Source: Verrucomicrobiota bacterium
GTDB taxonomy: Bacteria; Verrucomicrobiota; Verrucomicrobiia; Chthoniobacterales; UBA10450
NCBI GenBank assembly: GCA_003218975.1
Contig: QHPD01000006.1
Coordinates: 1 to 38,324 of the forward strand
Length of the DNA: 38,324 nucleotides
Direction of reading: 5' to 3'
Part shown: in pieces, positions 1 to 17,188 of the stretch
Numbering within the stretch: the stretch's first letter is position 1
How the letters are laid out: each line of letters starts with the position of its first letter
Notes under the pieces: generated by a model
What the model was told of the DNA's origin: nothing
The model's input: the letters and a program-made list of their open reading frames with translations, nothing else
Database searches by the model: none
Position numbers and translations under genes: made by a program

Positions 1-730
1 GGGTAACAACTACTACGGTCAGCTTGGCAACGGCACGACGACCAATAGCTATGTAGCGGTGCAAGCGATTGGCGTCACCAACGCTATCGCGGTTGCTGCA
101 GGTCAATACCATACCCTGGCTCTGAAAAGCGATGGAACGGTCTTGGCCTGGGGCTACAACAGTAACGGTCAGTTGGGCGATGCCACAACCACTCAGCGCA
201 ACGCGCCCGTGACAGTTAGTGGTGCCGCCAATATGATCTCGGTCGTCGCTGGCAACCACAGCCTCGCCATTGGCATTTACAAAGGGGTCGCTCTCATCTG
301 GGCGTGGGGTCCAAACAGTTATGGCCAATTGGGTGATGGGACAACCACTGAAAGACATGCTCCCGTGCTAACGCACACACCGTTCGATGCCGATCAAGAC
401 GGGTTGCCAGATTGGCAGGAGTACAACTGGAACAGCGATCCGCTGAATCCCGATACGAATGGTGACGGTCTATCCGATAGTGATGATGTGCTCATGGGTA
501 TCAATCCAGCGAATCTGGACGTCGATGGAGATGGACTCACAAATGCGCAAGAGCTTGCGATGGGAACCAACCCTTTCGTGGCCGATACCGATGGAGATGG
601 AGTGCTAGATAGACAAGACGCTTTTCCGTTGGATCCAACGCGTTCTCAAGGACCAGCGCCTGATCCCAACGATCATACGCCGCCCGTTATAACAATCACT
701 TACCCAACAACAGGAATTACCCAGCTGTAG
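1..730 (+). CDS. RCC1-repeat protein with thrombospondin-3-type calcium repeats (3' part)
   Basis: The reading frame is open from base 2, so the gene begins left of the window; the first in-frame GTG (59) is not a credible start. At least two RCC1-type blade units are visible, with the signatures YGQLGNGTTT, VAAGQYHTLALKSDGTVLAW and YGQLGDGTTTERHAPV, which in known families form a beta-propeller. About four aspartate-rich units follow (DADQDGLPDWQEY, DTNGDGLSDSDD, DVDGDGLTNAQE, DTDGDGVLDRQDAFPLDP), matching the DxDxDG pattern of thrombospondin-3/EF-hand-like calcium sites in secreted proteins. The protein stops 11 residues into TPPVITITYPTTG, which resembles the first strand of a bacterial Ig-like domain, so it may be truncated. 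It lies 45 bp upstream of the RHS gene on the same strand. The family calls are confident; the role (likely surface or secreted) is inferred. Confidence 0.85.
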   Translation, partial: GNNYYGQLGNGTTTNSYVAVQAIGVTNAIAVAAGQYHTLALKSDGTVLAWGYNSNGQLGDATTTQRNAPVTVSGAANMISVVAGNHSLAIGIYKGVALIWAWGPNSYGQLGDGTTTERHAPVLTHTPFDADQDGLPDWQEYNWNSDPLNPDTNGDGLSDSDDVLMGINPANLDVDGDGLTNAQELAMGTNPFVADTDGDGVLDRQDAFPLDPTRSQGPAPDPNDHTPPVITITYPTTGITQL

Positions 731-6249: not shown

Positions 6250-6621
6250 TCACGCTGACCGGCAACAGCACCTCCGAAGCAGTCGACAGCCTTGTGACGG
6301 GTGACACAATCAACAACTTCAACCAATTGAAGACCCGGCAGGGCGGGATTGGTGTCATGCCGATCCGAGGTACCACCAATGAGCCGTCGACTGTGACCGT
6401 AAACGGAACTCCCGCCACCGTTAAAGCCGATAACAGCTTTGAAGGAAAAGCTGCGGTCACTGCCGGCGATAACACAGTTACTGTGACGGCGACCGATGCG
6501 AACGGCAATGCGACGACAAATCGCTACAAAGTGACTGTCAGCGGGAGCGGCACCAAAACGTTCGTTTATCTGAGGAGAGAGATGGAAGCAATGACGCGAC
6601 CAAACGCTTTTATCCACAAGG
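6250..6621 (+). pseudogene. RHS core remnant, 5' part of displaced tip 2, broken by a frameshifting deletion
   Basis: The frame from about 6250 to 6570 encodes a near copy of the RHS gene around 4505-4800: DSLVTGDTINNFNQLKTRQG, then GVMPIRGTTNEPSTVTVNG and the Ig-like segment to GSGTKTFVY. Directly after FVY (about 6570) the DNA jumps to the equivalent of SEERDGSN, missing about 205 bases that the intact gene and tip 5 carry between these points. The loss is not a multiple of three, so the downstream RHS sequence lies in another frame and the upstream frame ends at 6686 as nonsense. There is no start codon or signal peptide of its own. I read it as a displaced RHS 3' fragment that later suffered a deletion. 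Confidence 0.8.
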
Positions 6622-6622
6622 A

Positions 6623-7414
6623 ATGCAAGTTGGTTCGACCAACTACTACTACTCGAAAGATCACCTTGGTTCGATACGTGAACTGACTGATAGCTCAGGC
6701 GCGGTGCAGGTGCGCTACGATTACGATGCGTATGGGCGGCTAACAAAAGTTCAGGGCGATTTGGATAGTGATTTCACCTATGCAGGTTACTACAACCATT
6801 CGGCGAGCGGGCTTTATGCGACTCTCAATAGGCTGTTTGACCCCAATCTAGGCAGGTGGATCAGCCGCGATCCGATTGAAGAAATAGCAGGCAGTAATCT
6901 ATACAGATACGTGTCCAGCAATCCAGTGAACTTCTTGGATCCACTGGGACTGGCCTCACTGACGACGGATATGACCGCCGGACTGACAGTTTTCAATCCA
7001 AATCCAGAAATGCCCGGACCAATCTCTGTCTATCCATCGCGAAATGAAGTGACCGCTAATTCGAAGCCCGGGGCGGCAGGTCCGTACAACTCCGATGACG
7101 TTTATCCAACAAAGGGGCCGTACTATAATGACCCAATATCTTACGGCCCCAATGATATTTTGAGAACCGATGATGAGAGGGGTCGATGGCTGCATGGTGG
7201 CGGTTTGGGCCTCCCCGATCCGTTTGCTCCTCGCCAAGGATGGGCTCCTACACATGGATGTACGAGATTACAGAATGAGGATATCCAAGATCTAGTAGAT
7301 AAGATTCGCGACTTCAAACAACAAAACCCTGGAGTGCCGGTGCCTTATCAGCGCTATAACTCGCCTGTCGGGGATTTTTATTCTCCGCTTCCAAAAAGAA
7401 TCGTGCTCGCATAA
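6623..7414 (+). CDS. Orphan RHS tip 2: RHS core end plus L,D-transpeptidase (YkuD)-like domain
   Basis: This open frame starts at an internal RHS methionine (6623, MQVGSTNYYY) and carries the end of the RHS core: KDHLGSIRELTDSSG, GRWISRDPIEEIAGSNLYRY and FLDPLGL. The tip (residues about 112-263) contains WLHGGGLG (His191) and, 22 residues further, PTHGCTRL (Cys213). This fits the H...[ST]HGC.R signature of YkuD L,D-transpeptidases, whose Cys attacks peptidoglycan stem peptides. L,D-transpeptidase-type effectors are known as antibacterial toxins (for example Tlde1 with a type VI system). There is no signal peptide, so it is probably not secreted alone and may act as a donor of 3' sequence for the full-length gene. 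A secreted candidate immunity gene follows 15 bp later. Tip fold: good confidence; expression as a separate protein: doubtful. Confidence 0.7.
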   Translation: MQVGSTNYYYSKDHLGSIRELTDSSGAVQVRYDYDAYGRLTKVQGDLDSDFTYAGYYNHSASGLYATLNRLFDPNLGRWISRDPIEEIAGSNLYRYVSSNPVNFLDPLGLASLTTDMTAGLTVFNPNPEMPGPISVYPSRNEVTANSKPGAAGPYNSDDVYPTKGPYYNDPISYGPNDILRTDDERGRWLHGGGLGLPDPFAPRQGWAPTHGCTRLQNEDIQDLVDKIRDFKQQNPGVPVPYQRYNSPVGDFYSPLPKRIVLA

Positions 7415-7429
7415 CTGCTGATTGAACGC

Positions 7430-7879
7430 ATGCGACTTCCCTACACAGTCACTTGTGTTGGTCTAATAATTCTGGGTGTTTGCTACGGAATCGACCAGGA
7501 TCCCCAGGAAACGCTCCATTACTTTCTCAATTTAAGCGAACAGCGCGGTAATATTTTCTACCAAGCAAAACTTGACGGCGTTGACTACCGGGCACTGCTT
7601 AAAGGGGCAATGGCAAAGGATGAGAAATCCCTCACGGCGTTGTTCAAATATACGGTGAAGGGAAGTTTAATGGGCGAGGGGGCTGATACTCATGGGGCAA
7701 TCCTTCAGGCACTTCTGTATTACTATGGAGATAAAATGTATTCGAAGGTGCTGGGTCGGTTGGATCAGTTGGTTAGACGGGAGGTAATCGCATATTTGGA
7801 CGAACGGTTTGGCTTGGAGTCGTATTCGAAGCGGTTTCCAAGAACGTATGCGCTCGCCCCACATAAGCACTCGACTTGA
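7430..7879 (+). CDS. Secreted small protein, candidate immunity protein for YkuD-like tip 2
   Basis: This 149-residue product begins 15 bp after tip 2. The N-terminus MRLPYTVTCVGLIILGVCYG is a signal peptide or membrane anchor; VCYG is only a weak lipobox. The middle part (YRALLKGAMAKDEKSLTAL, GEGADTHGAILQALL, SKVLGRLDQL) aligns well with the protein at 12120-12551, which sits after the other L,D-transpeptidase-like tip: the YR, GE, HG, L-AL and K-L--L positions are shared. Two related proteins after two tips of the same enzyme type support a toxin/immunity pairing. An export signal fits protection of the cell wall compartment. No named family was recognised. Confidence 0.75.
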   Translation: MRLPYTVTCVGLIILGVCYGIDQDPQETLHYFLNLSEQRGNIFYQAKLDGVDYRALLKGAMAKDEKSLTALFKYTVKGSLMGEGADTHGAILQALLYYYGDKMYSKVLGRLDQLVRREVIAYLDERFGLESYSKRFPRTYALAPHKHST

Positions 7880-7903
7880 ATTCCAAGCGCTTGCCAGGAG
7901 GCG

Positions 7904-8807
7904 CAGCGAGTTCACTTATAATGGACTTAGCCAGCGCGTGAAAATCGTGGAGAAAGATAATGGCTCTGTTACTAGTGCGAAGAATCTTGTCTGGGTCGGA
8001 TCAGAAATCGGTGAGGAGCGTGACGCGAGCAACAACGTTACCAAGCGCTATTATGCTCAAGGGGTACAGATTGGCTCGACGAATTATTATTACACACGCG
8101 ATCATCTCGGCTCGATTCGAGAGATGATTGACAGCAGCGAAGTCATGCATGCGAGGTATGACTACGATCCTTATGGCCGGCGGACAAAGGTTAGCGGCGA
8201 CTTGGATAGTGATTTTGCGTATGCAGGCTACTACAACCATTCATCAAGCGGCCTCTATGCAACTCTCAATAGGTTTTATGACCCCGGTCTAGGCAGGTGG
8301 ATCAGCAGGGATCCTATTGGAGAAACCGAAGGAATTAATCTGTACCGATACGCAGCAAATGATCCGCTGAAATACACCGACCCGAGCGGGCTGGAGGTAT
8401 TTCCGAACGGCGTTCCGAGCCCGACACCTTTGGGGTCAGGGCGTAGCCCGTGCACGATCTACGACGAAGCCCTGAAAGATGCACAAGCAAAATTCTCGAG
8501 ACAGGAGCTTTGGAATGTGACCAGGTGATGCATACAAGCATTGTCTGGCAAGTTGTATGATGGCAAGAGAAGATGGCAGTGCTGTGGCGAGTCTCTTTGG
8601 ATGGGCTAACGAAAAAAGGGGGACTGGCGCCACAATCAAGAAGAGGGCGAAAGAGCGATAGATGATTTTAACAATGTGTACGGGCGCCGATGTGCAAATG
8701 GATCTAACAGCACGCAGGACTGTCAGCAGAAATGCATGAATGCCGTAACCAGCGGAAATCTTATGACTTATACATCTGGTACGTCCTTAGGATATTGGGA
8801 TCGCTAA
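7904..8807 (+). pseudogene. Orphan RHS tip 3, decayed by two frameshifts (DAxxHC / NNxxGR-type tip)
   Basis: RHS similarity starts about 7904, just after the stop of the preceding gene, with FTYNGLSQRVKIVEKDNG, and runs through DHLGSIREM, GRWISRDPIGETEGINLYRY and YTDPSGL. The tip then continues in three frames. The first ends at 8528 with RQELWNVTR. The next frame gives DAYKHCLASCMMAREDG and GWANE. After an A6G5 run at 8612-8622 the frame changes again to give EEGERAIDDFNNVYGRRCA, QDCQQKCMN and a stop at 8805-8807. The DA..HC..SC ... D.NN..GR order recalls a domain often seen at polymorphic-toxin ends; I do not know its activity. Two independent shifts suggest real decay, although the homopolymer shift could be a sequencing error. 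Confidence 0.7.
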
Positions 8808-9349
8808 CGGAGCGTCTTAAAAATCAGTCGCACGTTGTCTTTGTTTACTCGATATTGTTCTGCTTGCTTGTTGGTTGCCGGGACGATTATGCATCCGTCT
8901 CGTTTCTAAAGGTTGAATCGGACGGCACTGGGCTTATCGATACAATCAAGAGTTATCAAAGCATCAATGAGTTTAAAGGGTTCCTTAGTCGCAGGTCATT
9001 TCGATGGGAAGAAAGTGAAGATCAGCCCTCTCCTAAAGGCAGACCGCCTTTTAATATGCACACTATCACGATCAAGAATTATGTACATCTTGGTTTTTCG
9101 GGCGAGCTGGATATTGCCTTTTTCAACAACAGATTGATCAGCACAAGATTCTACCCTACCGACCCTGAAAAATACATCGAAGTCCTTGGTGAAGTGGCAG
9201 GCATAAGGTTTGATAGCACTCAAGAGGCTAAATTACTGCGTCACACGAGAGTACGTTTTGGGATAGACTACAAGGGGCGAAAATACGTCGACTGGTCTGA
9301 TTTTCGTTTAGACAAGGAAGTAGAACTCTGGATCAAGCGATACTCGTAA
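8795..9349 (+). CDS. Putative lipoprotein, candidate immunity protein for tip 3
   Basis: From the TTG at 8795 the product is 184 residues and begins with a good lipoprotein signal, VVFVYSILFCLLVGC. An ATG at 8732 is also in frame, but it would add 21 residues overlapping the tip and make the signal unusually long. Neither start has a strong ribosome binding site. The body is a mixed alpha/beta sequence with aromatic positions (SINEFKGFLSRRSFRWEES, HLGFSGELDIAFFNNRLIST, FYPTDPEKYIEVLG) of the kind seen in small immunity proteins, but no family was recognised. It directly follows the frameshifted tip 3 and remains open although its partner is broken, consistent with retained protection against relatives. 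Confidence 0.65.
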   Translation: MGSLTERLKNQSHVVFVYSILFCLLVGCRDDYASVSFLKVESDGTGLIDTIKSYQSINEFKGFLSRRSFRWEESEDQPSPKGRPPFNMHTITIKNYVHLGFSGELDIAFFNNRLISTRFYPTDPEKYIEVLGEVAGIRFDSTQEAKLLRHTRVRFGIDYKGRKYVDWSDFRLDKEVELWIKRYS

Positions 9350-9439
9350 CTACATCGGCTGACCGCGGAGACCAGCGGCACGCAGGTACTTTCCTCGATA
9401 ACAACTCTCTTTCGCAATTGCGACTGCGGCGGCGTCAAG

Positions 9440-9620
9440 CTAGCTAACGTTCGGTTGCCTAGATTCTGGCGTTGCCAGCGCGGTTTTTTCCGGGAATTCA
9501 AAACTGACTTTTCCGTCTTCCAATTTCAAATATGCGGAGAACGGGCGTCCGCGTTTTGAGATGAAGCCGTCGAGGAGATCGGTTTTTCCCGTGGTGAGGA
9601 GTTTCTGCGCCTGGTCTTTT
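9440..9620 (-). pseudogene. Detached copy of the topoisomerase gene 3' end
   Basis: Read on the minus strand, 9620 down to 9440 encodes DQAQKLLTTGKTDLLDGFIS, then KRGRPFSAYLKLEDGKVSFE and FPEK, ending at a TAG stop (9442-9440). This is nearly the same as the last zinc-ribbon-type repeat of the topoisomerase encoded at 13088-16003 (there EQAQKLLATGRTDLLDNFIS, then KRGRPFSAYLKLENGKVGFE and FPEK), while the residues after FPEK differ. The fragment stops abruptly at 9620/9621, where RHS tip 4 begins. It lies in the same orientation as the intact gene, about 3.6 kb away. The changes point to a copy from a diverged allele rather than a fresh duplication. Confidence 0.8.
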
Positions 9621-10283
9621 GATGCGGATTTTGGATTTACTGGTCACTATTTCCATCAGCCGAGTGGTTTGAATCTTACCGTGTACCCAGGCTATGACTC
9701 TGACTTGGGAAGATGGATTAGCCGGGATCCAATCCGCAATGCAGAGTTTCTGCAAGGACCAAACTTATACGGATACGTCGGAAACAGCGTGATCAATGCG
9801 ATCGATCCTTACGGACTAAAGACCTGCTGGCGAAAACTAGATATAATTACGCATTTTGGAGATCGTCCTGAGGACAAGAAAGGGATCCGAAACCATGTGA
9901 TGCAGCCCGGCGACATCGCGGTCGGTCAATGGAGCGGGGATCGTTACATTCGCGGAGCAAATACAGCAGAAATCGAGGCAAACCAGGATCGGTACATGGT
10001 GCTAAAATATGGAACTGGTGTTTGGCTTTTCGTAGGCGGTAATGAGTCCGGTCGTTATCAGGTGACCGATTATGGGGCCTACGACAAGGACTACCCGGAA
10101 TATGCACCCGATAACTGGGCCGACATATACAACCCGGCAAGATCCGCTAGGCACGAGTCCTATGACAATGGCGGATGGATTGGCTTCGATGTCGACGACG
10201 ATTGTCCCTGCCCGCCGGGGTCAAGCCAGTATCCAGAGGGGGCTCCCGGGGTAGGACCTTGGCCGGGAGGTTACAACGTGTAG
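9561..10283 (+). CDS. Orphan RHS tip 4: RHS core end plus 3D/double-psi-barrel-like domain
   Basis: The open frame starts at an ATG (9561) inside the antisense topoisomerase fragment. True RHS similarity begins at 9621 with DADFGFTGHYFHQPSGLNL and continues through GRWISRDPIRNAEFLQGPNL and AIDPYGL. The tip (about residue 97 onward) contains MQPGDIAVG, YMVLKYGTGVWLFVGG and YQVTDYGAY, followed by WADIYNPA. This order recalls the 3D (MltA C-terminal/RlpA-like double-psi barrel) domain with its three aspartates, which in lytic transglycosylases acts on peptidoglycan glycan strands. It ends in a Pro/Gly-rich tail. There is no signal peptide, so it is most likely a stored 3' module. The fold assignment is a pattern match only. 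A secreted candidate immunity gene starts 22 bp later. Confidence 0.6.
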   Translation: MKPSRRSVFPVVRSFCAWSFDADFGFTGHYFHQPSGLNLTVYPGYDSDLGRWISRDPIRNAEFLQGPNLYGYVGNSVINAIDPYGLKTCWRKLDIITHFGDRPEDKKGIRNHVMQPGDIAVGQWSGDRYIRGANTAEIEANQDRYMVLKYGTGVWLFVGGNESGRYQVTDYGAYDKDYPEYAPDNWADIYNPARSARHESYDNGGWIGFDVDDDCPCPPGSSQYPEGAPGVGPWPGGYNV

Positions 10284-10305
10284 CGTAACTGACAGCGGAG
10301 TATAC

Positions 10306-10878
10306 ATGATGCGAAAGTCAGCTCGCCTTTTAGTCTTGTTGGTGTTGCTACATATCGTGGAATTGTTGGCTCAACCGCGTGGTTCCGACACAGTTGTTGG
10401 CATTTCCGAATCGGGAAATCTAAGAGTTACGATCGAGCGTACAGGCGAAAATCAATTTGAGGTTTTCCTTCTAAAAAAAGCACCCGCTGGAAAAGAGAAG
10501 ATCTGGGGTTCGTTCTGGGGAATAATCGACGCAAAGTTTTCACCTGACGAGCGGTACGTCGCGATTCGCGACGGGATGCGGTTTGATGTGCTGTCGCCGG
10601 TGCTGGTTTTTAGAATCCAGCCTGTTGGGACAGCGCTAGTGTACGAAACGCCGGGCAGTTTCTCCGCCGAAGAAACACATTTCACATACGAAATCGGAGC
10701 ATTCGAACACGACCGCCTTAGCATTAGGGTGTTCTCATTACAGCGCGACTCCGCCTCGCGGGCCACGCCTAAGTTTCAGTTCGAGTACGCCGTGGAAAAC
10801 CTTGACAAGCGGCAACCCATTGACTCGTTTTTCTACACTGGAGTCGAACGTCGACGATTACTTCAAAAGGGGCGCTAA
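10306..10878 (+). CDS. Secreted protein, candidate immunity protein for tip 4
   Basis: This 190-residue product has a clear N-terminal signal peptide (KSARLLVLLVLLHIVELLAQ). The mature part is predicted beta-rich, with SESGNLRVTIERTGENQFEV, AKFSPDERYVAIRDG (a strand pattern seen in WD40/TolB-like blades) and a PVLVFRI strand. It follows tip 4 by 22 bp on the same strand. Its position and export signal suggest it protects against tip 4 in the periplasm, but no family was recognised. The next RHS fragment starts about 60 bp after its stop, so it is bracketed by RHS sequence like the other small genes of the array. Confidence 0.7.
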   Translation: MMRKSARLLVLLVLLHIVELLAQPRGSDTVVGISESGNLRVTIERTGENQFEVFLLKKAPAGKEKIWGSFWGIIDAKFSPDERYVAIRDGMRFDVLSPVLVFRIQPVGTALVYETPGSFSAEETHFTYEIGAFEHDRLSIRVFSLQRDSASRATPKFQFEYAVENLDKRQPIDSFFYTGVERRRLLQKGR

Positions 10879-10935
10879 AGTCGAGGGAGCATCGTGAACT
10901 CTTCCCACATAGCCGGGCCGAGTAAGTGACTGGGG

Positions 10936-12123
10936 GTTCATAATACGGTCACGGTGGCTGCGACCGATGTGAACGGAAATACCACGACGAATCGCTACAA
11001 TGTGGCTGTCACCGGGAGCGGAAGTAAAACTCTCGTCTATGATCTCAACGGGAATCTTACCAGCGATGGCACGCGCACGTTTGAATGGGATCCACTGAAT
11101 CGATTGATGGCAGCCACCAGCGGCACGCATCGGAGTGAGTTTACGTACAATGGGCTAAACCAGCGGGTCAAGATTATTGAGAAGACCAACGGCAGCGTAA
11201 CGAGCACGAAGCAGTTTGTCTGGATTCCCGGAGACCCACAACCATCTGAGGAGAGGGATGGGAGCAATAGCCTTACAAAGCGCTTCTACCCGCAAGGAAT
11301 GCAGGTGGGCTCGACGAATTATTACTATACAAAGGATCACTTGGGCTCAATTCGTGAACTGACTGATAGCTCAGGCGCGGTGCAAACTCGCTATGATTAC
11401 GATCCGTACGGCCGCCGGATAAAGGTTAGCGGTGGTGTCGACGCGGATTTCGGTTTCACGGGCCATTACTACCATCAGCCGAGCGGACTGCATCTCGCCT
11501 TATATCGTGCCTATGATGCTGATTTGGGAAGGTGGATTAGCCGCGACCCAATCGCAGAAGAAGCAGGTTTAAACCTTTATCGATATGTGTTCAACAATCC
11601 CACGCGACTCACAGACATGTTCGGGTTGTTGGTGGATGCGTACTTCAATGTGTATCAAGGACTGTTAACGGTCGTGGATCGTGAGAGTGGTGCCAGGATT
11701 ACTCTCCCCGCCAATTCAGGGATACAAGGAACGACGATGAATAACAATCCTGATTACGAATTGCGACAAGGTGGTCCTATACCGCGGGGAGACTACGAGA
11801 TTCTGAATCGCCTTTATAATGAGCCGGATGAGTGGACTGACCTCGACCGGTTACAGGCGTCGGGCGTAGGAGTATGGGCGTTGGATATGCTCGACCGTAC
11901 CCCTCGCGATGACAAAGGCCGCGGTCGCGGTCTATTTCGGCTTCATCCGTTCTCGGGTACCGGGTGTGTCGTTTCGGACGATTTGAACAGCTGGGGTCAA
12001 ATGAGAGACATTGTTAACAACACAAGAACGCAGACGGTGACAGATGCTAATGGTAAGGAGCGTACGCTCTATGGGACGATGCATGTTTTCTCCACGGTGT
12101 CTCCGCGAGCTGTCTTTCCATGA
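10936..12123 (+). CDS. Orphan RHS tip 5: long RHS core piece plus L,D-transpeptidase-like (DUF2778/Tlde1-like) domain
   Basis: RHS similarity begins about 10936 (NTVTVAATDVNGNTTTNRYN) and stays in one frame to 12123; the first usable start is the GTG at 10954. The core is intact: SDGTRTFEWDPLNRL, KDHLGSIRELTDSSG, GRWISRDPIAEEAGLNLYRY. The cleavage-site block is altered, however, reading LTDMFGL where the other copies have DPxGL. The tip has GGPIPRGDYEIL and FRLHPFSGTGCVVSDD (His331, Cys338, numbered from 10954). This resembles the GxIPxGxY ... H...GC arrangement of DUF2778/Tlde1 L,D-transpeptidase-like effectors. No signal peptide is present. The stop overlaps the next start by 4 bp (ATGA). 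Enzyme type is probable; independent expression is uncertain. Confidence 0.7.
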   Translation, partial: VHNTVTVAATDVNGNTTTNRYNVAVTGSGSKTLVYDLNGNLTSDGTRTFEWDPLNRLMAATSGTHRSEFTYNGLNQRVKIIEKTNGSVTSTKQFVWIPGDPQPSEERDGSNSLTKRFYPQGMQVGSTNYYYTKDHLGSIRELTDSSGAVQTRYDYDPYGRRIKVSGGVDADFGFTGHYYHQPSGLHLALYRAYDADLGRWISRDPIAEEAGLNLYRYVFNNPTRLTDMFGLLVDAYFNVYQGLLTVVDRESGARITLPANSGIQGTTMNNNPDYELRQGGPIPRGDYEILNRLYNEPDEWTDLDRLQASGVGVWALDMLDRTPRDDKGRGRGLFRLHPFSGTGCVVSDDLNSWGQMRDIVNNTRTQTVTDANGKERTLYGTMHVFSTVSPRAVFP

Positions 12124-12551
12124 AAACTGTTTCGAATATCAGCACCGGAACATTCTATCTAGCAGCAGCAGCGATGGTGCTAGTTGCGTGCGCGGCCGGA
12201 GATCCTCGCAGTAACTCAAGTGACTGCGATATCAGCATTGGCGGATCTGTTTTAAGAGTGGCTGCGGAAAAGGGTTTTGCTTACCGGAGCTCGGTGCTGT
12301 CGGCATGCCACGGTGATTCTGAGGCACTTGTTCATCTCCTATTGTTTAGTGAGGAAACCGATGGGGAGGCGATGTTAGATCATGGAAATGTTCTCCTTGC
12401 CCTAAAGAGCCGTCTCGGTGTCGCGCGCTTCGACAAAACACTGCGCTCACTCGGTATAGAGCAGCAAAAGGCGATATCCGCAATTCTTCAGACGGCAGAA
12501 AGCATGCATCGGGCGACACGCCAAATTTTGGGATCTGGGGACCGTTCTTGA
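12120..12551 (+). CDS. Lipoprotein, candidate immunity protein for tip 5
   Basis: This 143-residue product overlaps the tip 5 stop by 4 bp (ATGA), suggesting coupled translation. The N-terminus has a lipoprotein signal, TFYLAAAAMVLVACAAG, with lipobox LVAC. The mature part (AYRSSVLSACHGDSEALVHL, GEAMLDHGNVLLAL, FDKTLRSLG) aligns with the candidate immunity protein at 7430-7879. Both genes follow L,D-transpeptidase-like tips, which supports a cognate relationship. The last codons appear to run into the remnant of another tip (see 12524-12613), so the native C-terminus may have been altered by recombination. Confidence 0.75.
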   Translation: MKTVSNISTGTFYLAAAAMVLVACAAGDPRSNSSDCDISIGGSVLRVAAEKGFAYRSSVLSACHGDSEALVHLLLFSEETDGEAMLDHGNVLLALKSRLGVARFDKTLRSLGIEQQKAISAILQTAESMHRATRQILGSGDRS

Positions 12552-12613
12552 CGGAGCCTGTTCCCGTTTGGCCTGCTGGGCTTGGACCTGGAACGCCAGG
12601 CTATACACATTGA
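12524..12613 (+). pseudogene. Possible 3' scrap of a sixth RHS tip
   Basis: In a frame different from the overlapping lipoprotein gene, the sequence reads NFGIWGPFLTEPVPVW and then PAGLGPGTPGYTH before a TGA at 12611-12613. The Pro/Gly-rich ending resembles C-terminal tails of secreted RHS tips (compare tip 4, which ends GAPGVGPWPGG). Another small exported-protein gene starts 10 bp later, the same spacing pattern as the intact tip/immunity pairs. This suggests the last codons of a further tip whose front was lost. The evidence is only composition and position. Confidence 0.35.
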
Positions 12614-12623
12614 TACGGAAGAT

Positions 12624-13055
12624 ATGGAACCCAAACAATTACTTGCGACCCGGCAACGTAGCTGTGTCTTGGGGGTTATCATCGCTTGCATCGTAATTGC
12701 CGCTGGTTGGCCGGCTGTAGTTAGAGCCATGGACTGGGAAACTGCCTCGGAAGTCGCTTTTTGTTATAACCGGGCAGGTTACGAACGCGATGCGGAACGT
12801 GTTCTGGACATCCTGAAAGCGCACGAGATATATGGCAAAATTATCTATTTCAAAAACATTAACGGCGTGGATGGAGTAACCGAGGATACATCTCACGCCG
12901 ACAAGTTTGGCGTTTTTGTGGACGTCCAGAGCGCTGATGCGGCGAGGAAGGTTCTTGCCGACGAAATAAAAAGAGGACTACGTCTCATTCTTTCTCAAAT
13001 CGACACTAACACGACTCCACGAATATCGCTCCCGCAACGCCGACTCAGCGTGTGA
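12624..13055 (+). CDS. Small membrane-anchored or exported protein, last gene of the RHS array
   Basis: The ATG at 12624 (MEPKQLLATRQRS) is preferred over 12582 because it leaves a normal signal/anchor, VLGVIIACIVIAAGWPAVVR, and places the start 10 bp after the preceding remnant's stop. The product is 143 residues. The mature part has two half-repeats of the type AERVLDILKAHEIYGKIIYF and FGVFVDVQSADAARKVLADE, vaguely like the DUF2007 (putative signal-transducing) ferredoxin-like fold. By position it could be the immunity protein of a lost sixth tip. The gene is convergent with the topoisomerase gene (33 bp between stops). Function unknown. Confidence 0.6.
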   Translation: MEPKQLLATRQRSCVLGVIIACIVIAAGWPAVVRAMDWETASEVAFCYNRAGYERDAERVLDILKAHEIYGKIIYFKNINGVDGVTEDTSHADKFGVFVDVQSADAARKVLADEIKRGLRLILSQIDTNTTPRISLPQRRLSV

Positions 13056-13087
13056 GAATGGCGAAAAAGTGTCACCAGGCGCTTTCG

Positions 13088-16003
13088 TTAGCTCGTCGTA
13101 CGCCCTTTGCCAGGGTTCAGCGCGGGCTCGATTTTTTCGGGAAATTCGAAGCCGACTTTTCCGTTCTCCAACTTCAAATAGGCTGAGAAGGGGCGTCCTC
13201 TCTTCGAGATGAAGTTATCGAGAAGATCGGTTCTCCCTGTGGCTAGGAGTTTCTGCGCCTGCTCTGTTGGGATATCGCGACCCAGAATCGTTTTGCTTAG
13301 TTTGAATTTGCACGGTCTTCGGTCGGCCTGCGAACGCTCACAAATGTAACTGTTCTCAGTTTCAAAAATCTTTCCGCCGCACTTTGGACACGTGCCGACC
13401 GGTTCTTTGCCTGTGAAATCAATCTTAGCGACCGGCTCTTTGGGCTTCCGTTCTTTTTTTGCCTTGGCCTCGCGCTTTTCGAATTCGAAGCCCACATCTC
13501 TTTTGTCGGTTAGCACGAGAAACGCTTTGAACGGCCTGCCTTTGCGCGAAATGAAGCGCGCGAGCAAATCGGTCTTCCCAGTGGTCAGCAATTTCTTTAT
13601 CTGCTCGCGATCCACCGGTTGTTGCAAGATGACTTTACCGGTTCGGAAGTCGCACGTTTTGTTTGGGCTGACTGAATTCTCGCAGACATAACTCATCCCG
13701 AACTCGAATACCCGCCCACCGCATTTCGGACATTTGCCCAGCGGCTCCTGCGCTGAAAAATCAACCGGTTGCGCAGCGCCGTTCTCCTGACCGTTTGGCC
13801 CGAAATCAAATTCAGCCTTGAACTGATCGCTCAGCCTCAGGACGGCTGGGAAACGCTTGCCTTTCCTGCTGCGAAAACCGGTCAAGGGGCCAACGTGTTT
13901 GTCCCGAACAAGAGTCTCGAACTCTTCACGGCTTAGCAACCGGCCGGCGATGGTTTTCCAAATCGTGAAATCGCACTCCTCATTCGTGCAGGTGAAACTC
14001 TTGAAGCGCTCGATGATGGACGAACCGCACTTTGGGCATTCTCCGAACGGCTCGCTCTCCGGCATGTGTTCGTCGGGATGAAAATGTCTCGCCTTGCCGA
14101 CGATTTCCTTCGTGAGATGGCGGATGTCGCGCATGAACGCGTCGCGTGTAAGCTTGCGATGCTCGATTTCCCGCAGGCGGAATTCCCATTCACCGGTTAT
14201 TTCCGGGCTGGTCAATTCCGGCACCGCGTTCTTCAAAAGGGAAATGGTTTGGATGGCCTTCGCTGTTGGCTGTAATTCCTTGCCGTGTCGCATCAGGTAA
14301 TGCGCTGAAATCAACGTCTCGATGATCGCCGCTCGGGTTGCCGATGTGCCGAGCCCTTTCTCCTTCATTGCCTCGCGCAATTCTTCGTCTTCGACCAGTT
14401 TCCCCGCCGCTTCCATCGCGCTGAGGATGGTCGCTTCATTGTAGCGAACGGGCGGCCGCGTCTCGTCTGTTTTGATTTCGACGCGCACCGTTTCGACGCG
14501 TTCGCCCTGATTGACCCTTGGCAAATTTTCTTCCGGCTTCTCGCTCGCAGCTTCGCGGCCATAAACCTCGAGCCAGCCGGGCGCGACCAGAATTTTTCCC
14601 TCCGTCTTGAAAGGCTCGCCTTCCACACGCGTGATTCGTGTGGTGTTCTCGTATTGCGCAGGCGGAAAGAACGCAGCCACAAAGCGCTTCGTCACCATGT
14701 CGAAGAGCGCTCGCTCATGGTTATCAAGCGACCGGGGAAGAGTGCCGGTGGGAATAATTGCAAAGTGATCGCCTACTTTTGCGTCGTTAAAAATACGCTT
14801 GTTTGGCTTGACCCAATTATTATCAAGGACTCTTTGCGCGAATCCCGCAATTGCGGGATCGATCCGTCCTAATGTCGATCTTACGGTTGGCGGGTAATCT
14901 TCCGGTAAAGCGCGCGAATCCGTGCGCGGATAGGTAATGGCCTTGTATTTCTCATAAAGTGCCTGCGCGATTTGCAGGGTGCGCTTTGCTGAGAAACCAA
15001 AGCGATTGTTGGCTTCGCGTTGCAAGGCGGTCAGATCATAGAGCTGCGGAGCGACCTGCGTGCTCGGCTTCTTTTCTTCCAACTCGACGATACCGTGTTT
15101 GCCGCTGCACTTGCGCTGGACGGCCTCGACGATTTCGCGGTACCACAATCTCGGCGCGGCGCGATGCTCGTCCCAGAGAGACCCGTTTGCAGAATCAAGC
15201 CGCTGCTCGGCATCGGGCAGATTCAATCGCAGGCGCGCAAGCAGTCTCTTTGTTCTCTCGACCTCGCCTTCTTCCTTCTTGAATGTTTCATCGAACCAGC
15301 GTCCCGAGTATTCGCCTGCCGCTGCGCGGAATGTGCCGATGATCTCGTGCAACTCGCGCGGCTTGAACTCCTGAATCTTGCTCTCACGGTCCACGATGAT
15401 AGCGAGCGTGGGTGTCTGAACGCGCCCGAGAGAAGTGACCGTGCTGCCGCGCCCGCCGCTCAGTCGCAACGTAAACGCGCGCGTCGCGTTAATTCCTACC
15501 AGCCAATCCGCCTCGTTCCGGCTTCGGGCCGCGCTGGCCAAGGGCTGCATTTCAGCGTCGCTGCGCAACCGCGCGAAGCCTTCGCGAATGGCTTCGGGCG
15601 TCATCGATTGCAGCCAGAGGCGCTTGATCGGCTTCTTCGTGTCCGCGTATTGGATGATGTAGCGGAAGATTAATTCGCCTTCTCGGCCCGCGTCGCATGC
15701 GTTGATGATCTCCGAAACACTTTTGTCTCTGATGAGCTTGCGAAGAACATTGACCCGACCGCTCATTTTCTCCGCAGGCTGGAGCTCAAATTCGGCCGGC
15801 ATGATGGGCAATTTCTTCATGTCCCACTTATCCTGTTCTTTCATCGAAGCTGGCACCGCGAGCTCAAAAAGATGGCCTACCGCCCACGAGATGAGGTATT
15901 TCTCTTTCTCGTAGTAGTCCTTGCCTTTCTTGAAACCGCCCAGCGCCTTGGCGATATCGCCAGCGACCGATGGCTTCTCGGTAATGATGAGGGACTTGGA
16001 CAT
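13088..16003 (-). CDS. topB: Type IA DNA topoisomerase, topoisomerase III-like, with zinc-ribbon repeats
   Basis: This 971-residue enzyme cuts and rejoins single DNA strands to relax negative supercoils or unlink DNA. The Toprim domain starts SLIITEKPSVAGDIAKALGG and includes CDAGREGELIFRY (acidic Mg site). The active-site tyrosine is in ITYPRTDSRAL near residue 358. The EKPS and YPRTDS motifs look like topoisomerase III rather than TopA. The C-terminal third has CPKCG-type zinc ribbons (FGECPKCGSSI, GKCPKCGGRVF, GTCPKCGGKIF) alternating with topoisomerase C-terminal repeats (GRPF.A.L.L). It lies 84 bp downstream of dprA in the same direction, the place many bacteria keep topA, so it may be the main type IA enzyme here. 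A diverged copy of its 3' end lies at 9440-9620. Confidence 0.9.
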   Translation of the reverse strand: MSKSLIITEKPSVAGDIAKALGGFKKGKDYYEKEKYLISWAVGHLFELAVPASMKEQDKWDMKKLPIMPAEFELQPAEKMSGRVNVLRKLIRDKSVSEIINACDAGREGELIFRYIIQYADTKKPIKRLWLQSMTPEAIREGFARLRSDAEMQPLASAARSRNEADWLVGINATRAFTLRLSGGRGSTVTSLGRVQTPTLAIIVDRESKIQEFKPRELHEIIGTFRAAAGEYSGRWFDETFKKEEGEVERTKRLLARLRLNLPDAEQRLDSANGSLWDEHRAAPRLWYREIVEAVQRKCSGKHGIVELEEKKPSTQVAPQLYDLTALQREANNRFGFSAKRTLQIAQALYEKYKAITYPRTDSRALPEDYPPTVRSTLGRIDPAIAGFAQRVLDNNWVKPNKRIFNDAKVGDHFAIIPTGTLPRSLDNHERALFDMVTKRFVAAFFPPAQYENTTRITRVEGEPFKTEGKILVAPGWLEVYGREAASEKPEENLPRVNQGERVETVRVEIKTDETRPPVRYNEATILSAMEAAGKLVEDEELREAMKEKGLGTSATRAAIIETLISAHYLMRHGKELQPTAKAIQTISLLKNAVPELTSPEITGEWEFRLREIEHRKLTRDAFMRDIRHLTKEIVGKARHFHPDEHMPESEPFGECPKCGSSIIERFKSFTCTNEECDFTIWKTIAGRLLSREEFETLVRDKHVGPLTGFRSRKGKRFPAVLRLSDQFKAEFDFGPNGQENGAAQPVDFSAQEPLGKCPKCGGRVFEFGMSYVCENSVSPNKTCDFRTGKVILQQPVDREQIKKLLTTGKTDLLARFISRKGRPFKAFLVLTDKRDVGFEFEKREAKAKKERKPKEPVAKIDFTGKEPVGTCPKCGGKIFETENSYICERSQADRRPCKFKLSKTILGRDIPTEQAQKLLATGRTDLLDNFISKRGRPFSAYLKLENGKVGFEFPEKIEPALNPGKGRTTS

Positions 16004-16087: not shown

Positions 16088-17188
16088 CTAGCAAAGCTTC
16101 ACGAAATATTTTCCCGGCAATTGTTTGACCAGGCGTTTTAGTTCCAACTGCAATAGTGTGGACGAAACGGCTGCGCTCGACAATTTGCTCTTCGCAGCGA
16201 TTTCGTCAATGGGCGTCTCGGTCGCGTCAATCGCGTCATAGACTCGGTGCTCTTCATCGGAGAGCGCCGGCAGTGGCCGCATAGCGGCCTCCGGCGACGG
16301 TTTTGTTTCTGGCAAAAGAATCTGCAGATCGTCCAGGATGTCTGCGGCATCCATAACGAGCTTGGCACCCTGCTGGATCAACCGATTCGATCCCATCGCG
16401 CTCGGCGCGTTAATGTGGCCGGGCACTGCGTAAATCGAACGACCTTGTTCCAGTGCCTGCGCTGCTGTGATGAGCGCGCCGCTATTCAAGCCGGCTTCCA
16501 CGACAAGAATGCCGTGGCTCCACCCTGCAATGATCCGGTTGCGCATCGGAAAAGTTTGTCGATCTGGTTCAATCTCCATCGAAAACTCGGACACGATCGC
16601 GCCATTTCCGCTCCGAATTTTCTCGGCGAGCGCAGCATTCTCCGGCGGATAGAGCCTGGCTAATCCGGCGCCGATTACTGCGATCGTGCGTCCTTTCGCG
16701 GCGAGCGCGCCTTGATGCGCGGCGGTGTCGATGCCGCGGGCAAGTCCGCTGATTACGGTCAATCCCGCGTAAGCCAGTTGATACGCCAGTTTCTTGGCCG
16801 ACTCCATGCCGTAATGTGTGGTGCGCCGCGCGCCGATGACACCGATTGCGTGATGATCGCGCTCCTCCAGCTCGCCCCAAACGTAGAGCACGATAGGCGG
16901 CGCATGGATTTCGCGCAGCGACTTGGGATATGCCGAGGATTCCTGGGTAATCACCGTCACCTCAAATTCGCGAACGCATGCAAGCTCCGCGGGAAGATCG
17001 ACAGTTGATTCCCAGTTGCTGATTTGCTCGGCTACTTCGTTGCCGATTCCTTCGACCTTGCGAAGTTCGCCGCGTCTCGCAGAGAGGATTTGTTGAGGCT
17101 CCTTAAAAACCTCCAGCAATTTACGCAGCCGCACCGGCCCAACCGTGGGCAACATGTTGAGCGCGATGCAGGCTTCGGTCGCGTTCAT
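16088..17188 (-). CDS. dprA: DNA processing protein DprA
   Basis: The 366-residue protein has the full DprA layout. An N-terminal helical/HhH-like region (MLPTVGPVRLRKLLEVF, KVEGIGNEVAEQI) is followed by the Rossmann-type core with GARRTTHYG, VISGLARGIDTAAHQGAL, GAGLARLYPPEN, FPMRNRIIAG and VPGHINAPSAMGSNRLI. It ends in a winged-helix-like domain (ETPIDEIAAKSKLSSAAVSS). DprA binds incoming single-stranded DNA and loads RecA during natural transformation. It is transcribed toward the topoisomerase gene. Two hairpins lie between it and ssb. The assignment is secure; whether the organism is competent is not shown here. Confidence 0.95.
   Translation of the reverse strand: MNATEACIALNMLPTVGPVRLRKLLEVFKEPQQILSARRGELRKVEGIGNEVAEQISNWESTVDLPAELACVREFEVTVITQESSAYPKSLREIHAPPIVLYVWGELEERDHHAIGVIGARRTTHYGMESAKKLAYQLAYAGLTVISGLARGIDTAAHQGALAAKGRTIAVIGAGLARLYPPENAALAEKIRSGNGAIVSEFSMEIEPDRQTFPMRNRIIAGWSHGILVVEAGLNSGALITAAQALEQGRSIYAVPGHINAPSAMGSNRLIQQGAKLVMDAADILDDLQILLPETKPSPEAAMRPLPALSDEEHRVYDAIDATETPIDEIAAKSKLSSAAVSSTLLQLELKRLVKQLPGKYFVKLC

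Follow-up and report, generated by a model that had tools for sequence, protein, structure and literature searches.

How does part of a housekeeping gene come to lie inside an array of RHS sequences, and when a locus holds two versions of the same gene end, which of them is the old one? These questions are raised by the window, a stretch of 38,324 nucleotides from a Candidatus Udaeobacter-like genome (3.06 Mb, 165 contigs), in which the 3' end of a DNA topoisomerase IA gene (topA) recurs within such an array. To our knowledge, the way in which hotspots without an integrase gain genes has mostly been deduced from statistics, and most observations of additive illegitimate insertion come from laboratory transformation. 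An earlier note on this DNA read the second gene end as the scar of an import from a relative and proposed that cassettes arrive by recombination anchored in flanking housekeeping DNA. Here we examine this proposal by comparison with related genomes, which are drafts and mostly metagenome assembled.

A second topoisomerase 3' end within the RHS array

The features of the locus are listed in Table 1. Translated from the minus strand, the remnant comprises the last 61 codons of a topoisomerase gene (60 residues plus TAG) with no frameshift or internal stop. A repeat search aligned positions 9478 to 9621 with positions 13126 to 13269 in the same orientation, with 81% identity over 144 nt, and the stop codons of the two copies, TAG in the remnant and TAA in the local topoisomerase gene at 13088, are exactly in register (offset, 3648). 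Over the whole 177 nt, the identity is 72%, because the tails after FEFPEK are unrelated. Within its own genome, the remnant matched only itself, the local gene (E = 3.7e-32) and, over 40 nt, an RHS sequence; at this E value, the match to the local gene is not a chance similarity. The description given in the earlier note, a diverged topoisomerase 3' end with a different tail inside the RHS array, is borne out, except that of the last Toprim_Crpt repeat (residues 898 to 955), which had been said to recur, only the second half is present.

The cut had been placed exactly where RHS sequence begins, and it lies within a base or two of that point. At the junction, topoisomerase sequence ending in TCTTTTG abuts the RHS sequence (G)ATGCGGATTTTGG, with the cut at about 9620 to 9622; a comparison of TCTTTTG/ATGCGGATTTTGG with the topoisomerase sequence TCTTTTGGGATGTC and with the RHS sequence AATGTCGATGCGGATTTTGG, for which the main copy served as the reference, leaves an overlap of about 1 base.

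The window contains an RHS tip array, in which a full core is followed by core fragments with unrelated tips. The RHS core fragments of insert A differ by about 20% from the main gene, which is similar to the divergence between the two topoisomerase ends. The full-length RHS protein looks unusual in that a Peptidase C39 domain and a TPR-like stretch are located N-terminally of the RHS repeats, and two displaced tips (6623-7414 and 10954-12123) match L,D-transpeptidase-type families, YkuD and Tlde1, respectively.

Table 1. Features of the window and topoisomerase remnants at related loci
Feature	Position	Strand	Basis or remark
3' end of RCC1-repeat gene	2..730	+	probably the side toward eamA
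Full-length RHS gene, 1699 aa	776..5875	+	Pfam scan
Additional RHS core fragments carrying displaced tips (YkuD-like tip at 6623-7414)	6258..8528	+	
205-aa ORF at the 3' flank of the remnant, possible immunity gene	8732..9349	+	
Displaced topoisomerase IA 3' end (remnant)	9440..9620 (about to 9622)	-	open frame to stop TAG at 9440-9442
Abrupt junction of remnant and RHS core	9616..9623	.	about 1 nt overlap; read as illegitimate
Presumed insert A between the two gene ends	9621..13087	.	contains two tip-bearing RHS core fragments and small genes
RHS core fragment with tip	9621 (about)..10283	+	repeat and translation analysis
190-aa ORF, possible partner of the preceding tip	10306..10878	+	no Pfam match
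RHS core fragment with Tlde1-like tip	10915..12123	+	Pfam scan
Small ORF following the Tlde1-like tip, probable immunity gene	12120..12551	+	same pair in G144
157-aa ORF between array and topoisomerase gene	12582..13055	+	ORF list
Present topoisomerase 3' end, presumed part of the import (upstream crossover not located)	13088..13270	-	identity drop versus gene body
Intact DNA topoisomerase IA gene, 971 aa	13088..16003	-	Toprim, Topoisom_bac, three C-terminal repeats
dprA, core flank upstream of topA	16088..17188	-	
G030 (L044) remnants	9269-9494 and 14997-15255		profile match
G014 (L039) remnant	15393-15492		profile match

Remnants at the topA loci of related genomes

A nucleotide profile of the gene ends of the genus was scanned across the topA loci of about two dozen genus genomes. 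It recovered four remnants in three genomes, namely, that of the window (E = 1.9e-46), two in G030 (2e-63 and 8e-75) and one in G014 (5e-22), and with this 3'-end profile no further remnants were detected among the other loci scanned. The possibility that the remnant is unique to the window was hence rejected, as was a role of RHS sequences as the general mobile agent, because G030 and G014 have remnants without RHS at the locus. All four remnants end at the stop codon (profile positions 314 to 319 of 321), and their starts fall at four different codons (profile positions 149, 94, 61 and 214); since these starts vary, the cut is not site specific.

Site-specific elements integrate at gene 3' ends, for example, those of guaA or tRNA genes, and a renewed gene end with the old end left at the far side is their hallmark. 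The loci described here share this hallmark; however, no integrase was found among the scanned ORFs, the cut points are four different ones, and the copies are 70 to 81% identical instead of sharing a short identical core. With no integrase found and no fixed site with a short identical repeat, the integration of mobile elements into the topoisomerase gene 3' end is largely refuted, and we regard it as extremely improbable.

The clearest case for polarity is G030, in which the remnants carry the gene end that is native according to the species tree and the present end is foreign. Its two remnants, r1 and r2, are 87.9% and 86.2% identical to the sister genome G021, versus 67.8% for the present end (Fisher's test, 9e-6 and 7e-5), and they group with G021 in a tree (99/94), in agreement with an rpoB clade of G020, G021, G024 and G030 (99/96). 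In both, the tail is almost that of G021, and the 11 bases that follow the stop are also about the same. The G030 gene body (about 1800 to 2750) is 92 to 94% identical to G021, and this identity falls over the last ~200 nt, so that a homologous crossover at one end is visible as a native gene body followed by a foreign 3' end. In G021, a DUF900 hydrolase gene directly follows topA (the DUF900-type call comes from a Pfam scan of the homologue in L048). The native gene order is retained behind r1 in G030, where the 3' half of a G021-type DUF900 hydrolase, 94.8% identical at the amino acid level, is found 1.05 kb further on; a further event replaced the 5' half of this hydrolase. Because the ends are sister-like and the native hydrolase lies behind r1, the G030 remnant marks the old end and part of the old neighborhood.

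The start of r1 also bears on a variant in which a single homologous crossover brings in a circle that carries cargo together with a 3' piece of the topoisomerase gene, as proposed for RHS arrays (PMC2935791). Such a circle would leave the same anatomy with no need for an illegitimate junction, and variable remnant starts would also be expected. It predicts a new gene end, the cargo and then a remnant with a donor 5' part and a recipient 3' part. However, the first 40 nt of r1 match the host gene body at 39 of 40 positions, and both match G021 at only 36 to 37 of 40; over these 40 nt, the 5' part of r1 and the gene body both look recipient derived. In addition, sequential use of the locus would need circles carrying a housekeeping gene end. 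We consider a circular intermediate unlikely.

In G014, the tail of the remnant contains TESK, which is also found in the clade of G014; the tail of the present end, together with the bases that follow it, resembles that of G034, a member of another clade. Identity to the nearest relative does not separate the remnant from the present end in this genome (P = 0.88).

The probable old gene end in the window

In an rpoB tree of 33 genus genomes, the sister of the window genome (G000) is G007 (100/100). Because the G007 assembly breaks off inside topA, the polarity in the window is judged from G019, the closest remaining relative for which a 3' end is available, and by analogy. The available part of the local gene body is 83.5% identical to G019 and the remnant is 83.9% identical, versus 70.1% for the present end (Fisher's test for remnant versus present end, P = 0.002). 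No genus genome matches the present end at more than 79% identity, compared with a mean best identity of 87.6% for the gene body, and this drop is the largest among the genomes that could be scored (z = -3.5). On the basis of these identities, both to G019 and to all genus genomes, the remnant looks native and the present end looks like a newcomer. The remnant is thus probably the old native 3' end of the recipient, and the present end is probably the import.

This probably reverses the direction assumed in the earlier note, according to which the fragment itself came from a relative. Under that polarity, a donor segment with an RHS tip, the partner gene at 8732-9349 and the topoisomerase end would have entered through RHS core homology on the left and would have been joined illegitimately to the native RHS core at 9621, and the present gene end would be native. 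RHS cores have been proposed as anchors (PMC2935791), the remnant is as close to G009, a member of another clade, as it is to G019, and the present end groups with G011, which is the outgroup of the rpoB clade of the window and, as a neighbor of that clade, not clearly foreign. However, the present end is an outlier versus every genome, the identity of the remnant to G019 is as expected from the gene body, and G030, with native-like remnants and no RHS at its locus, shows the opposite polarity. We regard an imported remnant as quite unlikely.

The donor may have had topoisomerase and RHS tips as neighbors, as the earlier note supposed. Within the genus, RHS adjoins the topoisomerase gene only in G000; the RHS genes of G001 and G030 are located on other contigs. 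When 213 genomes of the order were searched with two queries, the 9771-10283 tip and the 12120-12551 ORF, no donor was detected in the genus. The Tlde1-tip pair was found in G144 only, on a short stretch with no topoisomerase gene seen, and a weak match was found in G181. The G144 copy (G144:C44:4974-5264, L191), from another genus of the family, combines a Tlde1 tip (63% at the amino acid level) and a small ORF with an RHS core.

Similarity of the remnant to other species and to the local gene

The topoisomerase genes of the genus were aligned, and the remnant was compared over a 147-nt core. It is closest to G019 and G009 (85.7% each), followed by G013 and G026 (85.0%), and the local gene, with 78.9%, is near the bottom of the genus ranking. 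At fourfold sites, the remnant is matched by G019 at 16/21, by G009 at 13/20 and by the local gene at 8/17; at all third positions, the counts are 34/49 for G019 versus 30/49 for the local gene. The remnant is therefore not closest to the local gene at synonymous sites, the outcome that was to point to a local duplication. By identity, the copy resembles the genes of other lineages. In a tree on 192 columns, the local present end groups with G011 (98/93), and the remnant is located next to G019 and G009 without support. For this short sequence, an approximately unbiased (AU) test did not reject the local gene and the fragment as one clade (P = 0.24), nor did it reject, on the same columns, a clade of L044 with its own remnants (P = 0.31). 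A rank correlation of rpoB identity with end identity was not significant.

Because both overall similarity and fourfold sites favor other species over the local gene, duplication is disfavored, if not formally rejected, and the remnant is probably not a local duplicate. A gene end that was duplicated in tandem and then diverged, or a chimera of the assembly, would be in line with the AU result; however, the local gene is among the genes least similar to the fragment, and three separate genome bins show the same anatomy, one of them with two remnants. Either origin seems very unlikely to us.

The gap between topA and eamA

The core gene order at the locus is dprA-topA, the gap and eamA-nrdR. 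Downstream of the gap, eamA is found in 17/22 and nrdR in 14/22 relative loci, with the others ending early or being rearranged. Across relatives, at least six cargo types are located between topA and eamA, and nine relatives have no cargo, with eamA within about 300 nt of topA. A DUF900-type hydrolase is the cargo in six relatives; other cargo consists of an S74-chaperone protein, a histidine kinase and a LuxR-type regulator, ORF6N and PIN, PLD and a PemK-like toxin, or RCC1 and RHS. A Pfam scan of the main insert ORFs identified no integrase or transposase. The topA gene is mosaic. A simple linkage of tail and cargo, with one tail type in all hydrolase genomes, was not seen.

In the window genome, the contig with eamA and nrdR terminates within an RCC1-repeat gene, and such a gene is also where the window contig begins. 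Since both contigs break inside such a gene, the topA-eamA gap is most likely occupied by the RCC1 gene together with the entire RHS array. The very large RCC1-repeat gene itself is probably split over the two contigs (2-730 of the window and the end of C148, L143) by an assembly break in repeats.

Discussion

The data presented here support the proposal that cassettes recombine in through flanking housekeeping DNA, which fits the window and two related genomes. We think it likely that the gap is an integrase-less hotspot at which incoming DNA renews the topA end and displaces the old end downstream, with the cargo in between. DNA of a relative would recombine homologously with the 3' region of the topoisomerase gene, and the last codons of the recipient would be swapped for those of the donor, so that the gene would acquire a new tail and remain intact. 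At its far end, where it has no homology, the incoming DNA would be joined illegitimately inside the old 3' end of the recipient. The new cargo would then separate the renewed gene from the old end, and the latter, truncated but with its stop kept, would be displaced downstream. In the window, the displaced end would be 9440-9620 and the new cargo would be 9621-13087 with its RHS tip cassettes. We infer one such step per remnant, with linear incoming DNA.

The general frame for such a locus is given by the integrase-less hotspots of Oliveira et al. (2017), which are anchored in flanking core genes (PMC5635113). Fixed core flanks (here, topA and eamA), varied cargo, no mobility genes found and a mosaic flanking gene are common to both; however, the published model is a double-crossover replacement, whereas the individual events described here are additive and can be recognized by pieces of the flanking gene that were displaced. 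Similar to our proposal, Kirchberger et al. (2017) explained the sequential displacement of effector-immunity genes in the type VI secretion system (T6SS) clusters of Vibrio cholerae by homology-facilitated illegitimate recombination, a process that was proposed for T6SS immunity arrays and that these authors noted to be rare in experiments (PMC5361080). In both cases, there is a homologous anchor on one side and an illegitimate join, which is presumed in our case, on the other, old sequence is pushed downstream, and repeated events build an array. Here, however, it is the end of a housekeeping topoisomerase gene that both serves as the anchor and becomes displaced, and most of the cargo is something other than effector-immunity pairs. 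The displacement of RHS C-terminal tips, for which Jackson et al. (2009) presented a circle-based model (PMC2935791), likewise stores old 3' ends downstream of an intact gene, and the window also has such an RHS array. However, the topoisomerase is not a toxin, and the core copies are identical within a locus in that work, in contrast to a difference of about 20% here.

Displaced ends of housekeeping genes are direct marks of single natural events, as they record the anchor, direction and order of the event along with a donor signal, and a single profile for each flanking gene could be used to look for them at other hotspots. Our findings suggest that the topoisomerase C-terminal tail has repeatedly been exchanged as a by-product. 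It is possible, if doubtful, that the topA 3' end is a portable homology arm and that the cassettes of the genus move as units of cargo plus topA end without a recombinase. If so, each arrival would renew the housekeeping tail and leave a scar, and the remnants would be a readable record of acquisition.

Several observations on the genes of this locus may be added. Directly upstream of topA is dprA, a DNA-uptake processing gene, which alone is no proof of competence. In G002, G003, G004, G008, G025 and G028, most of which are near G000 by rpoB, the topoisomerase shares only about 55% identity with the enzyme of the other genus members, a possible whole-gene replacement. Lastly, the gene bodies of G006 (L034), which has hydrolase cargo, and G027 (L049), which has no cargo, are about 95% identical until the last ~60 nt, where the tails differ, and these genomes form a clean pair for locating the tail switch.
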